Origin: Anaerolineales bacterium | GTDB taxonomy: Bacteria > Chloroflexota > Anaerolineae > Anaerolineales > UBA11858 | Direction of reading: 5' to 3' | Length of the DNA stretch: 64,000 nt | NCBI GenBank assembly: GCA_028278545.1 | Contig: JANQED010000033.1 | Span: 102,344 to 166,343 of the forward strand | Part shown: piece after piece, positions 3,172 to 11,242 of the stretch | Layout: each line of letters starts with the position of its first letter | Position numbering within the stretch: position 1 is the stretch's first letter | The notes under the pieces: generated by a model | What the model was told of the DNA's origin: nothing | What the model saw: the letters and a program-made list of their open reading frames with translations, nothing else | The model's database searches: none | Made by a program: the position numbers and the translations under genes

Positions 3172-4503
3172 TTATCCCAACGCTTCAAGCATTTCTCGAT
3201 TTGTAGCGAATTTAAAGTCTTCCAGGCCGTGGGCTTCAGCTTGCGCCCTTTCGATCTGGCTGAGTCTTTCAACACCGGCCTTATCAACCACGGGGTGAGG
3301 CAGTTTCGCCATCCTCTCAGCAACAGCTCCAAGATGGTTAGCGGTGTCTTCGGGAGCGGGTAAGGTTTGAAGATATTGAAGCACGGCCTCGGCGCCATTT
3401 TCTCCGTCTTTACGGGCATAACCGACCAATCCGCTGCTGGCCTCGCGCGACCACCCAGCTACGAAGACACCTTCTAAGGGTTTTTGCGTTTCCGGGTCGA
3501 ACACTTCGTAGGAAAGCTCGTTGATCGGGTAGCGAGGGGTGGGATGTTTGACGAAAGCATTCCACTGGACCGGAAGGCCAAACGATTCATCGACCTTATC
3601 CCCGATACAGAACACGACCGTGTCCACATCTAAGACGCGCCTGGTGCCCAGCGGGTGGGTTTTCGTGCCCCCATTGCGGGCGACCAATTTTGTGTCCTCA
3701 ACTTCCAGGCCGCGCACCTCTCCACGGTCATCTCCAAGCATTCGCGTTGGCGATGAGAGGAACTGAAATGTGAAGCGCGATTCCGAATTAGGCTCTTTGG
3801 CCTTTGGCAGCGCCGAGAGGATGAAATCCTTGGCTGCCGTGGGGTCTTGATCTACGGCGCGCATGTGCACGGCAACGCGCTCGAACTCAGCCTCTAGAGC
3901 ATCCAGATCGAGGTTGAGGGCTACACTTTCCATCTCTTTTTTGGTGAATTTGACTTCTGCTGGGCCTCGCCTTGCTACTGCGATCACTTCATCGACTTTC
4001 TTGTCGCGGATCATCCAATGGGCAATATCGATCATCACATTGCCCACACCGATCAGCGCGACGCGCCTCCCGATGGCGAACTGGCGTTCACTGAAGGGCG
4101 GCAGCTTGTTATAGTGATAGACCAGGTCTTTGGCATGGAAAACCCCTTTGAGGTCTTCTCCGGGCAGCCCCAGCCATTTGGTGCCCTGAGCACCAACAGT
4201 CACGACGATGGCCTGAAATCCGATCTGGCGCAGGTCATCAAGGTTCAAATCCCCGGCATTTCCGACCCTGACATTCCCGTAATAAGTGATCTTCTGCTCG
4301 GCGAGGATCTTTTGAAATTGTTTGCGCAGACCAGCCTTCATACGATATTTGGTGTGATAAATACCATATTCAGCCAGGCCGCCCGGTTTGATGTCGCGGT
4401 TAAAAATGACCACCTCGACCCCAGCCTGGGCCAGTTTTTTAGCAGCATATAAGCCAGCCGGGCCAGCGCCAACGACAGCCACAAGATAATTCCCATTTTC
4501 CAT
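3172..4503 (-). CDS. FAD-dependent pyridine nucleotide oxidoreductase (adrenodoxin/ferredoxin-NADP reductase-like)
   Basis: VAVVGAGPAGLYAAKKLAQAGVEVVIFNRDIKPGGLAEYGI; second nucleotide-binding region VALIGVGNVMIDIAHWM. Confidence 0.85.
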   Translation of the reverse strand: MENGNYLVAVVGAGPAGLYAAKKLAQAGVEVVIFNRDIKPGGLAEYGIYHTKYRMKAGLRKQFQKILAEQKITYYGNVRVGNAGDLNLDDLRQIGFQAIVVTVGAQGTKWLGLPGEDLKGVFHAKDLVYHYNKLPPFSERQFAIGRRVALIGVGNVMIDIAHWMIRDKKVDEVIAVARRGPAEVKFTKKEMESVALNLDLDALEAEFERVAVHMRAVDQDPTAAKDFILSALPKAKEPNSESRFTFQFLSSPTRMLGDDRGEVRGLEVEDTKLVARNGGTKTHPLGTRRVLDVDTVVFCIGDKVDESFGLPVQWNAFVKHPTPRYPINELSYEVFDPETQKPLEGVFVAGWSREASSGLVGYARKDGENGAEAVLQYLQTLPAPEDTANHLGAVAERMAKLPHPVVDKAGVERLSQIERAQAEAHGLEDFKFATNREMLEALG

Positions 4504-4759
4504 GTAGTGTGTTCCTCCGAGGGTTGGTTAGCTTCTGTGGGTATTATACCTGCCCTTGTTTGTGACCTGCCAGCCTCGCGCGATGGAAAGAGGCCATCTT
4601 AAAGCGGTTGTTGATGATACAATTCCAGTTTGATTGTTGACGAGACAGCCCCCGTTCACCTGGCTGTGCCGGTTTGTTCCTGGGTGGTTCTTGATCCCAA
4701 AGGGATAGCTGTCTCCGGAGTTGGTCGCAATAAAATCTTTTTATGAGGTATTGCTTTAG

Positions 4760-6049
4760 ATGGACTCTCCCATAACTGAATTAAAACTTTCCAATGGGAT
4801 GCGAGTGATGCTCAAGGAGATCCACACAGCGCCGATCATCAGCAGTTGGGTCTGGTATCGGGTTGGGTCGCGCGATGAAATCCCCGGCAAGACGGGGATA
4901 TCTCATTGGGTGGAGCATATGCAGTTCAAAGGCACCCCCCAGTTTCCTGGCGGCGTTCTCGATAAGGCCGTCTCCAGGGAAGGGGGTGTCTGGAATGCCT
5001 TTACCTACCTGGATTGGACAACTTATTTCGAGACCATGCCCGCCGACAAGATCGACCTGGCCCTGCGCCTGGAAGCGGACCGCATGGTCAACAGCATCTT
5101 CGACGCCGAAGAAGTAGAATCTGAGCGCACGGTGATCATCTCTGAGCGGCAAGGCAGCGAGAACCAGCCTCTCTTCCAATTGGGTGAGGTGATGCGGGCC
5201 GCGGCCTTCCGGGTGCACCCCTATCATCATGAGATTCTTGGAGATATGGCCGATCTGCAAACCATCCAGCGTGATGATCTTTACAATCACTATCGCAGTT
5301 ATTACCGGCCTAATAATGCCGTGATGGTCGTGGCGGGAGATTTCGAAACCCAGGCGGTGAGGGAGCGCATCGAAGCGCTGTATGGGCCCTTGGGGGCTGG
5401 TGATGATCCCATACGACCGGCACGCCCCGAGCCCCCCCAGCGTGGTGAACATCGCCTGACCGTGGAGGGTTCTGACGATACAACGTATGTGCAGGTGCTC
5501 TATCACTCTCCGGTCGCCTCAGACCCGGACTTCTTCCCCTTCATCGTCCTGGATAGTTTGCTGACCGGCCCCACGGGTTTGAACATGTTTGGCGGCGGGA
5601 TTTCCAACAAGACCTCGCAACTCTATCTCAAGCTGGTGGAGGGCGACCTGGCAGTGGGCGTGCGAGGCAGCCTGCCTGTGACTATTGACCCTTATGTTTA
5701 CAACATTACAGTGACCGTCCATCCTGACCGTACGGCTGAGGAGGTCATCACTGCGCTGGATGAAGAGATCCAGCGAGTGCAGGAGACGCCGCCGACCCAG
5801 GAGGCCGTCGATCGGGCGGTCAAACAAGCGCGGGCGCTGTTTGCCTACGGCAGTGAGAGCATCACCAACCAGGCTTTCTGGATGGGCTTCACGGAGATGT
5901 TTGATTCTTACGACTGGTTTACTGGTTATCTGGATCGTCTGGCTGCTGTGACGACCGATGATGTGCAGCGCATTGCACAGACGTATTTGGTGCCCCGCCA
6001 GCGGGTTTTGGGAACCTATTTGCCCACCAATGGGGAGGTGTCAAAATGA
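4760..6049 (+). CDS. M16 family zinc peptidase, catalytic-type subunit
   Basis: HxxEH zinc motif (SHWVEHMQFKG), M16 C-terminal domain features. Confidence 0.9.
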   Translation: MDSPITELKLSNGMRVMLKEIHTAPIISSWVWYRVGSRDEIPGKTGISHWVEHMQFKGTPQFPGGVLDKAVSREGGVWNAFTYLDWTTYFETMPADKIDLALRLEADRMVNSIFDAEEVESERTVIISERQGSENQPLFQLGEVMRAAAFRVHPYHHEILGDMADLQTIQRDDLYNHYRSYYRPNNAVMVVAGDFETQAVRERIEALYGPLGAGDDPIRPARPEPPQRGEHRLTVEGSDDTTYVQVLYHSPVASDPDFFPFIVLDSLLTGPTGLNMFGGGISNKTSQLYLKLVEGDLAVGVRGSLPVTIDPYVYNITVTVHPDRTAEEVITALDEEIQRVQETPPTQEAVDRAVKQARALFAYGSESITNQAFWMGFTEMFDSYDWFTGYLDRLAAVTTDDVQRIAQTYLVPRQRVLGTYLPTNGEVSK

Positions 6050-7846: not shown

Positions 7847-8515
7847 TTATGCTTCGGCTTCTGCTTCCGCTTTTTCGGCTTTGATTTCTGCTCTGGCCTT
7901 GAAGAACTCGTAGACCGGCGGAATGAACGAGATAAAGATGATGGCGAAGATCACCAACTCGAAGTTGTTCTTGACGAAGGGCAGGTTGCCGAAGTAATAG
8001 CCCAACAATGTGAAGCTGGTCACCCAGACGATGGCACCCACAACGTTGTAAGTGACAAAACGGCCATAGCGCATCGTCCCGACACCGGCTACGAAGGGGG
8101 CAAAGGTGCGGATAATGGGGACGAAACGCGCCAGGATGATGGTCTTGCCGCCGTGCTTCTCGTAAAACTGCTGGGTCTTTTGGAGATAATCCTGTTTCAG
8201 CCAGCGGATGTTGCCGCTGAAGGCTCGATCTCCAACATAGCTGCCGATCCAGTAGTTGATTGTGTCTCCGAGGATCGCGGCGACTATCAGGAGGCCAATG
8301 ATCGTCCAATGATTCAGGTCTCCCTTGGCTGCGAAGCTCCCTGCGGCGAAGAGCAAGGAATCGCCGGGCAGGAAGGGGGTCACTACGAAGCCTGTTTCCA
8401 TGAAGACGATCAAGAACAGGATGATATAGGTCCAAGTGCCGTATTGGGAGATGATGGTGCTCAGGTGTTCATCTATATGGAGCACGAATTCGATCAAGAA
8501 GGTGATGAGTTCCAT
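7847..8515 (-). CDS. DedA family membrane protein
   Basis: [56 protein letters not shown]-type sequence. Confidence 0.9.
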   Translation of the reverse strand: [222 protein letters not shown]

Positions 8516-8620: not shown

Positions 8621-9934
8621 TCATTGTTCTGTGATAATGACCGTAATGATGTTATCTCCCGGGGGCAGCTCCCCACCCTGGGATGGATCGCGAGGCGTGA
8701 AATCTTGAACCACTTCCATGCCGCTGATCACTTCCCCAAAGATGGTGTAACCACCGTCGAGGTGAGTGGCGGGGCCGTAAGTGATGAAGAACTGGCTGCC
8801 ATTGGTGTCCAGGCCGGAATTAGCCATGGCGACCAAGCCCTCACGGTCGAAGGATAGATCTTCTGATGTTTCGTTCTTGAAGGCGTAACCTGGGCCGCCC
8901 AAGCCTGTTCCCGTGGGGTCCCCACCCTGGGCCATGAAGCCAGGCAGCACGCGGTGGAATGGTGCGCCGTCAAACCAGCCTTCTCGGGCTAAGAAGACGA
9001 AGCTGTTGACCGTTATGGGGGCCACATCGGGGAAGAGTTCGATGACAACGTCGCCCTTTTCAGTCTGAAGGGTGGCAGTGTACCCCTTGAGTGGGTCGAT
9101 GACCATTGGGGGACATTCGGTATATTGCTGCTCGGCGAATTCGGTCAGGCTGAGGATGGCGGTGATGCTGGCAGAATCCAGCGGGCCGTTGTAGGGGTTG
9201 TTGTTGAGCGCAAAGAAGGGCGTGCCGGGAAGCCCGATCCGCTGACCCTCTTCCCAGGTATTCTCTGCCAGGGCGACGATCTGCTCGCTGTTGAGATCAG
9301 CCTCGAATTGGGCTGCATCTATCTCCAATGCAGGGGCATTGTCGATCAGCCAACTCTGGAAGCCTTCTACGGAGAGGCCGGTCCAATTGGAGATGTTTTC
9401 GTAGAGGAAATTGTGCATCTCCCAGAATTTGCCTTGCAACCCGGCTGCTTCTGCGGCCTGGGTAGCCAGCAGCGCTTTATCATGAATGGAGGCCAGAGGG
9501 AAATGACGGTAGACCACGCGCACATCTTCGGGAAAATCGACTTTGAGTTGCGCCAACACGGGCGCAATTTGAGCGCAGTATGGTCATTGATAGTCGCCGT
9601 ACTCGACGATGGTCAGGGCGGCGGTTTCGGGGCCTAAAACCCAGTCGTCGTCGGTGACAGCGAAGATGTCCGCGTAGGGTGTTTCTGGGTCCATGGGCGC
9701 GCTGACCATGGTGCACTCACTGACGAATTTGGCCGGGGTGGGCTCTTCTTCGGCGGCGAGAGCGGGGGTCTCCGTGGGGGGAGGTTGGGTGGGGGGAGGT
9801 TGAGTATGGGTGGCTTCGGGAGTAGGGGGTGCTTCTTGTGCAGAAGTCTCCCCGGCCTGAGTCGGCGCCTCCCCGCCGCAGGCGGCCAATAAGAAGGCCA
9901 GTACCAACAAAGGGATTAGAAAACGTTTGTACAT
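8621..9934 (-). CDS. Candidate selenoprotein: lipoprotein with Pro-rich linker, DsbA/thioredoxin_4-like domain (UPYC) and C-terminal cyclophilin-type PPIase; in-frame TGA at 9584-9586
   Basis: ORFs 9584..9934 and 8621..9559 share a frame, separated only by TGA: ...TIVEYGDYQ-(TGA)-PYCAQIAPVLAQLKVDFPEDVRVVYRHFPL...; lipobox LLAACGG; cis-Pro GTPFF; cyclophilin FHRVLPGFMAQGGDPTGTG. Confidence 0.8.
9548..9567 (-). promoter_or_regulatory. Putative bacterial SECIS hairpin just downstream of the in-frame TGA
   Basis: Transcript: UGA-16 nt-UUGCGCC-CGUGUU-GGCGCAA; 7-bp perfect stem, 6-nt apical loop containing GU, loop starts 24 nt after UGA. Confidence 0.65.
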
Positions 9935-9943
9935 GAATCTCTC

Positions 9944-11242
9944 CTAAGGGGTTAGATTTTTCTCCACAGCCGCTTGCAACTGCTCGAAGGACCACATCCA
10001 AGAGATGCGGTTGACGAAAGCAGCCAGCGAGGGGCTTTCGGCGCGCAGGGCGCGTACAGCGGCACCAATAGGGTCTTCACTGACGCCTGCCGCGCCGCCG
10101 GGTTGGTCTGCGTAAGCGCCGTGAAAGGCAAAATAGGCCTGATTGAGCTTGCGGATACGGTAGCCGTTCTCAACGAAAAGTTGGCGGCGGGTCTCCATAT
10201 AGGCTTCGGCTTCTTCGATCTCCCCTTCGGCCAGCATCTGATCGACGTTGAGGCGGGTTTCGTGCATTTCAGCCCTGAAATCGAAGGCCGGGGGTTCGGG
10301 TTCGGGGGTGATCTCTTCACTGGGCTCCGCGATTGGCTGCGGCGGGGGCGGGACGAACTCTGGATAATAGCGCTCGATGAGTGCGGCGCCGATTTCTTTC
10401 CCGGCGATGTTGGCTGTCGTCTCGTTGATGGTGCGCAGCTCAGCGTTTTTCATGTAACTGGCTCCCAGAGGGCGTAGGGTGAGGAAGTTGTGGATCCATT
10501 CGTGGGCCACTACCTCAGCCAGCCAGTTGATGTTCGTGGTCTGGACAACCATGGTGGGATAGGTGCCCACGCCGCCGATATTTACGACCAATGAGGATAC
10601 GTTCAATGCCTGGTCAACCTGGGTTTCGAGGGTAGCGCGCTGGTCGGTGGGGTACTCGTGCTGGAGAGAGATGTTGGCATCTTGCTGGATCACGTCCCGA
10701 GGGGAGACGATCAGGGCCAGCGGCAGCGGCGTGATATGGTAAAGCACTGGCGGTATGGATTGCCCCCCAAAGGTCAGGTCTAGTTCTGCGGCGGTAGTCC
10801 TGAGCTGGTTCTGAAAGATCGATTCGGCCAGGGGAGCCAGGTGTCTGCGGTGCTTGTAAAGCCGGTCCAGTTCTTGGCGCAGCGGTTCTGAGGCCGCCTC
10901 AGGGTTGGCGATTTCTGGGTTGGTGTAATACTCGTCGAGGTAGCCTTCGTATTGGGAAATTTGCGCGACCAGATCGAGGTAGTCCAGCACAAGCAGGCTT
11001 TGATCATCTGGGGTCAGGTAATCGGCTGTTCCTATGCCGATCTGACCCAGTTTGTCCTGCAGGGCATCCAGAGTCCAGTTCACGTAGTCGAATTCGATCT
11101 GACGTGTGAAGGCGCGTACGCGCTCGACTTGATCTCCTGGCTCCAGGACGCTGCGCTGCAGGGAGAAAACGGCCATCAGGACGACAATTGTGGGGCGGAG
11201 AAAAGGCCTTATCAACGACCATAAACCGGGCATAACGGGCAT
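9944..11242 (-). CDS. Putative exported zinc metallopeptidase-like protein
   Basis: N-terminal hydrophobic segment; HEXXH motif in VVAHEWIHNFLTL; 9 nt upstream of the selenoprotein candidate, same strand. Confidence 0.65.
   Translation of the reverse strand: MPVMPGLWSLIRPFLRPTIVVLMAVFSLQRSVLEPGDQVERVRAFTRQIEFDYVNWTLDALQDKLGQIGIGTADYLTPDDQSLLVLDYLDLVAQISQYEGYLDEYYTNPEIANPEAASEPLRQELDRLYKHRRHLAPLAESIFQNQLRTTAAELDLTFGGQSIPPVLYHITPLPLALIVSPRDVIQQDANISLQHEYPTDQRATLETQVDQALNVSSLVVNIGGVGTYPTMVVQTTNINWLAEVVAHEWIHNFLTLRPLGASYMKNAELRTINETTANIAGKEIGAALIERYYPEFVPPPPQPIAEPSEEITPEPEPPAFDFRAEMHETRLNVDQMLAEGEIEEAEAYMETRRQLFVENGYRIRKLNQAYFAFHGAYADQPGGAAGVSEDPIGAAVRALRAESPSLAAFVNRISWMWSFEQLQAAVEKNLTP

Follow-up and report, generated by a model that had tools for sequence, protein, structure and literature searches.

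The stretch of DNA analysed here (64,000 nucleotides of an Anaerolineales contig, JANQED010000033.1, phylum Chloroflexota; henceforth the window) carries on its minus strand a long reading frame that contains one internal TGA codon, located precisely where a thioredoxin-fold redox site would have its first cysteine. The question that this locus raises is whether the codon terminates a protein or specifies selenocysteine (Sec) and, in the latter case, what kind of enzyme is encoded.

Reading frame and gene layout

Translated with TGA as U, the frame 9934..8621 yields 437 residues and terminates with TGA at 8621-8623. The sole internal TGA is codon 117 (9586..9584), with 116 codons on its 5' side and 320 on its 3' side, and it occupies the first-Cys position of a CPYC motif (YGDYQ-U-PYC). 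A preliminary description of this DNA, made from the letters alone, had reported a single minus-strand frame broken only by the TGA at 9584-9586, about 116 codons before and 320 after it and the replacement of the first Cys of CPYC, all of which is confirmed by the translation; the lipobox (LAAC, Cys19), the cis-Pro of GTPFF (Pro239) and the intact cyclophilin domain (PF00160) it listed were also recovered. The features of the locus are as follows.

8621..9934, minus strand: predicted DsbA-like/cyclophilin selenolipoprotein gene, 437 residues (ATG at 9934, terminal TGA at 8621-8623)
9584..9586, minus strand: in-frame TGA, residue 117, the U of UPYC, read as selenocysteine (translation and homolog alignment)
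9575..9577, minus strand: Cys120, resolving Cys of UPYC (translation and alignment)
9548..9567, minus strand: putative bSECIS hairpin, UUGCGCC-CGUGUU-GGCGCAA (hairpin scan against synonymous shuffles)
9878..9889, minus strand: lipobox LAAC, residues 16-19, with lipid-attachment Cys19 (translation; Cys19 shared by 90% or more of 39 aligned homologs)
9152..9652, minus strand: DsbA-like thioredoxin-fold domain, PF13462, residues 95-261 (Pfam and NCBIfam)
9218..9220, minus strand: cis-Pro239 of GTPFF (invariant among 39 homologs)
8696..9073, minus strand: cyclophilin-type prolyl isomerase domain, PF00160, residues 288-413 (Pfam and structure match)
9941..9945, minus strand: AGGAG, Shine-Dalgarno-like site 5' of the ATG (sequence reading)
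9944..11242, minus strand: upstream co-directional gene, 432 aa, without Pfam match (adjoins the fusion gene also in the related loci L157 and L161)
7847..8515, minus strand: downstream co-directional DedA/VTT-domain membrane protein, PF09335 (likewise a neighbour in L155, L156, L157 and L161)

The stop of the upstream gene and the ATG of the fusion gene are separated by 9 nt and AGGAG lies just before that ATG, which suggests that the two genes form an operon. The upstream 432-residue protein (9944-11242, minus strand) contains HEWIHNF, i.e. a zinc-metallopeptidase-like HExxH motif.

Conservation of the TGA among homologs

Homologs were searched in genomes of the phylum (400) and of the class (396) (E-values of these genome searches are per genome), and full-length fusions were found in many families. 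From the same bacterial class 120 fusion homologs, mostly derived from metagenome-assembled genomes (MAGs), were taken and the codon aligned to residue 117 was read: it is TGA in 56, a Cys codon (TGC or TGT) in 44 and a different sense codon in the remaining 20, so that in the homolog check proposed by the preliminary description the column holds Cys or TGA in 100 of 120 cases. The TGA forms represent 56 loci in 55 independent genomes and, apart from the TGA in column 117, there is no stop in the aligned frame of any of the 120 homologs. Because the TGA recurs in the same column at all these loci and stops occur nowhere else, chance or assembly error can be excluded. Further TGA forms are supplied by a named collection of public genomes (Chloroflexota MAGs of Anaerolineales, Anaerolineaceae, Ardenticatenia, Thermoflexales and others), among them the nearest Sec relative (L156, JAADGN010000064.1), which is 55% identical to the window protein; the nearest Cys relative (L155, JALUWE010000007.1) has TGC and is 54% identical. 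The contig of L156 contains short runs of N within 1317-1693 and 4180-4887.

On a tree computed with the residue-117 column masked there are 11 changes between Sec and non-Sec, at least 9 of which are forced by well supported branches, a pattern that is typical of Sec/Cys exchange. The approximately 320 codons that follow the TGA are under purifying selection, dN/dS being between 0.06 and 0.12 for eight pairs of closely related Sec forms, and 0.24 for the window compared with L156. The earlier view that the interrupted frame is not a product of random decay thus holds, given the shared TGA column in 55 genomes, the lack of other stops and these low dN/dS values.

The forms that have neither Sec nor Cys carry Ser, Asp, Ala, Glu or Thr at the first active-site residue, and therefore have lost the redox site; they belong mostly to one sister family (f2) of the same order. 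Most members of f2 lack the first active-site Cys/Sec while retaining the cyclophilin domain (L025, L027-L032, L034-L036, L038-L040, L042, L043, L045, L047 and L057), and judging from their sequences these would have a thioredoxin fold that is redox-dead yet apparently conserved. Part of the family can therefore do without redox activity.

Selenocysteine machinery

The genome from which the window derives (85% complete, 3.7% contaminated) encodes a tRNA-Sec with anticodon TCA (UCA; 75 bits), selA (532 bits) and selB (329 bits). The check for Sec machinery proposed in the preliminary description therefore succeeded for these three components and fell short for selD, for which no match over the cut-off was obtained in the own, 85%-complete assembly. 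Two weak selD-like matches proved on reading to be HypE and another AIRS-type protein and were rejected. Of 20 genomes examined for selD, 15 have it, among them all three further TGA carriers in that set, and in 14 of these 15 the selD gene is itself interrupted by one TGA, so that its absence here is most simply ascribed to the incomplete assembly. Over the larger set, 47 of the 55 TGA-bearing genomes have a selA above the cut-off and 2 more have fragments of it; the remaining 6, in which selA is missing, are MAGs that are 67-90% complete. Conversely, in all 7 genomes that are at least 94% complete and without selA, the residue-117 column holds a sense codon.

A hairpin downstream of the TGA

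Bacterial SECIS elements (bSECIS) are stem-loops located shortly after the UGA, with an apical loop 16-37 nt away and a G within loop positions 1-2. Since plain folding to minimum energy of the 40-60 nt that follow the UGA gave weak, unremarkable z-scores, we instead scored in each gene the best hairpin of bSECIS geometry (apical loop of 3-14 nt that starts 16-37 nt after the UGA and has G at its first or second position) against 200 synonymous-codon shuffles. The window gene has such a bSECIS-like hairpin at the expected place (9548-9567), as the proposed SECIS check had called for: a 7-bp stem and a 6-nt apical loop with G at position 2, the loop beginning 23 nt after the UGA (z -5.8). As a group, only the Sec forms have hairpins that are stronger than those of their shuffles: the mean z-score is -2.56 for Sec forms (n=60), -0.05 for Cys forms (n=53) and 0.02 for the others (n=20), and the difference between Sec and all non-Sec forms is highly significant (Mann-Whitney p 1.5e-16). 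When relatedness is controlled for by means of 9 independent pairs, the hairpin on average goes with the TGA in 6.4 pairs and against it in 0.3 (median p 0.031).

Among the Sec forms, 23 of 56 fall short of the strict hairpin threshold, and two placements of the hairpin occur, with the loop at +23 or at +37. Both stems show compensatory changes, in that the paired bases have changed on both sides: columns 23/34 appear as G-C, T-A and C-G, and columns 37/47 as G-C, A-T, C-G and T-A. The nearest Cys form (L155) retains a hairpin just after its TGC (UUGCGCC-CGUGCU-GGCGCAG, z -2.9), probably as a relict of a recent change from Sec to Cys.

Decoding of the TGA

The same in-frame TGA, together with a recoding hairpin, has been retained in dozens of related bacteria, and for that reason we consider it very probable that the gene 9934..8621 encodes a genuine selenoprotein, its UGA at 9584-9586 specifying selenocysteine. 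The initial proposal of a selenoprotein is strongly supported by the TGA/Cys column, by tRNA-Sec, selA and selB, and by the TGA-specific hairpin; it is from these computed properties (machinery, column conservation and hairpin) that we infer the decoding itself. In the proposed route tRNA-Sec, SelA and SelB would decode the UGA, directed by the hairpin that lies directly downstream of it within the coding sequence.

Could the TGA nevertheless be a true stop, the locus being either a decaying pseudogene or a gene for a 116-residue lipoprotein followed by a separately initiated C-terminal protein? The absence of selD from the assembly would fit this, as would the 312-residue GTG-started frame that follows the TGA (e.g. 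from GTG 9559), but re-initiation there would begin inside the thioredoxin fold, past an active site that would already be lost. Moreover, the recurrence of the TGA in 55 genomes without any other stop in the homologs, strong purifying selection on both sides of it and the specificity of the hairpin to TGA forms led us to reject both the pseudogene and the split gene, which we regard as very unlikely. Decoding as tryptophan or non-specific read-through is more improbable still, and hardly credible: the frame would be open under such a code, and that is its sole support, whereas the gene uses TGA as its own terminator (8621-8623), Trp is encoded at the column in none of the 64 sense-codon homologs (Cys in 44), and the genome possesses selA, selB and a tRNA-Sec with a UCA anticodon. 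This reading was rejected as well.

Domain architecture

In the window protein the lipobox is followed by a linker rich in Thr, Pro and Glu. The redox domain matches two Pfam families above their gathering cut-offs, PF13462 (E 4e-19, 69.9 bits against 23.2) and PF01323 (E 3e-13, 50.5 bits against 25.6), and the C-terminal domain matches PF00160 (E 3e-43, 148 bits, above the gathering score) and retains the FHRV, MAQGGD and QFFIT motifs. An AlphaFold2 model of the whole protein has a mean pLDDT of 89, and in a structure search its cyclophilin domain matches solved cyclophilins with a TM-score by target of up to 0.90. The best 50 matches of the whole-model search are nearly all cyclophilins, and the search is therefore uninformative on the redox domain.

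Relation to known families

Selenocysteine in DsbA/DsbG-like sites is already known (PMC1088965, PMC1794560, PMC9312934, PMC13188914). Judged by sequence similarity, the nearest family to the redox domain of the window protein is NF041057 (Rcas_1661 family thioredoxin-like (seleno)lipoprotein), which is listed as 'DsbG-like protein' with a UxxC site in Table 1 of PMC13188914. Its model is matched by all 39 aligned fusion proteins and by residues 9-250 of the window protein (E 2.5e-27), the score of 96 bits being below the curated cut-off of 190. The two share the lipoprotein character, the DsbA/DsbG-type thioredoxin fold and the UxxC/CxxC site, but the family consists of 247-residue single-domain proteins without cyclophilin, whereas the window protein is a cyclophilin fusion. 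DsbA-like selenoproteins (PF01323, UxxC; recorded by the Sargasso Sea survey, PMC1088965, and by inventories since then) likewise have Sec in place of the N-terminal active-site Cys, yet a fusion to a cyclophilin/prolyl isomerase and a lipoprotein architecture are absent from those descriptions: the word 'prolyl' does not occur in the searched text of PMC1088965, PMC1794560, PMC9312934 and PMC13188914, and PMC13188914 mentions neither cyclophilin nor PF00160. The C-terminal domain, for its part, resembles the bacterial cyclophilins PpiA/PpiB (e.g. M. tuberculosis PpiA, PDB 1w74) in sequence and fold, although the known ones stand alone and here the domain forms the C-terminal half of a redox lipoprotein.

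The fusion had provisionally been taken as unrecorded as a selenoprotein, and this stands in so far as we found no description of a cyclophilin-fused selenolipoprotein in the open-access literature searched; Sec in a DsbA-like site as such is not new. As the redox domain is a relative of the already listed NF041057, the new part is the cyclophilin-fused lipoprotein subfamily, which is widespread in Anaerolineae-type Chloroflexota. We hold it to be fairly probable that this is a large undescribed selenoprotein subfamily characteristic of these bacteria, a surface lipoprotein in which a Sec disulfide catalyst and a prolyl isomerase would act from one chain on the same exported client, with repeated switching between Sec, Cys and catalytically dead forms. 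Gene callers would cut such genes at the UGA, and the class-wide family is therefore probably mis-annotated as fragments. The family would bring selenocysteine and prolyl isomerase together in the extracytoplasmic folding machinery. Within one architecture and one class it also offers a natural series for the long-standing problem of what makes a protein retain Sec or exchange it for Cys, comprising at least 9 Sec/non-Sec switches, forms without the active-site residue and a Cys form with a relict SECIS hairpin.

Proposed function and redox partners

The product would be a lipoprotein on the outer face of the cytoplasmic membrane, most likely a cell-surface folding catalyst that combines selenol/thiol disulfide exchange with prolyl isomerisation, a chemistry that we infer. 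The N-terminal DsbA-like domain, with the predicted active site Sec117-Pro-Tyr-Cys120, precedes the C-terminal cyclophilin domain: Sec117 would attack or donate disulfides in newly exported proteins, Cys120 would resolve the mixed selenenylsulfide, and the tethered cyclophilin would isomerise prolyl bonds on the same client. Exchange at Sec117/Cys120 and cyclophilin activity on one client together lead to the proposal of a one-chain oxidative-folding catalyst. That the protein serves as a folding catalyst in general is likely, and that it does so as an oxidase rather than as an isomerase or reductase has about an even chance.

The window protein could also be a selenoprotein that works as a disulfide isomerase/reductase of the DsbC/DsbG kind, with the cyclophilin as a refolding partner, an option to which we give a smaller though still appreciable chance. 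The residue directly before the cis-Pro is Thr (GTP), as in DsbC/DsbG, whereas E. coli DsbA has Val. In addition, PMC13188914 lists the closest known selenoprotein family as 'DsbG-like', and the class has separate DsbA-like proteins beside VKOR that are possible dedicated oxidases. Against such a role, neither Pfam nor the model reveals a dimerisation domain of the DsbC/DsbG type, the N-terminus consisting of the lipobox and a low-complexity linker, and the Pfam/NCBIfam matches are to DSBA and Thioredoxin_4.

For the oxidase, a VKOR-type partner would plausibly re-oxidise the enzyme. Two VKOR proteins are encoded in the own genome, at sites not adjacent to the fusion gene, and might act as electron acceptors. 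Several relatives have, next to VKOR, a distinct DsbA-like gene that stands alone and in some cases contains a TGA of its own, so that VKOR may serve those proteins instead and the fusion could be a specialised second enzyme. The DsbA-VKOR pairs of bacteria of the Gram-positive type (e.g. M. tuberculosis Rv2969c, PMC3792642) share with the window protein the DsbA-like fold and a VKOR in the genome, but there the active site has Cys where the window protein has Sec, and the fusion gene lies apart from VKOR.

Stand-alone NF041057-like proteins with an in-frame TGA occur in the same class (L239-L241, L245 and L246; matches in G437, G519 and G562), the TGA being confirmed at the UPYC/UPFC site in L241, L245 and L246. 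Some of these genes lie next to VKOR genes (G519:C393 and G562:C358), forming a probable Sec-DsbA/VKOR pair. Finally, the proteins L242 and L244 (G659 and G713) are about 700 residues long and comprise three DsbA-like CPYC/CPFC domains in tandem.
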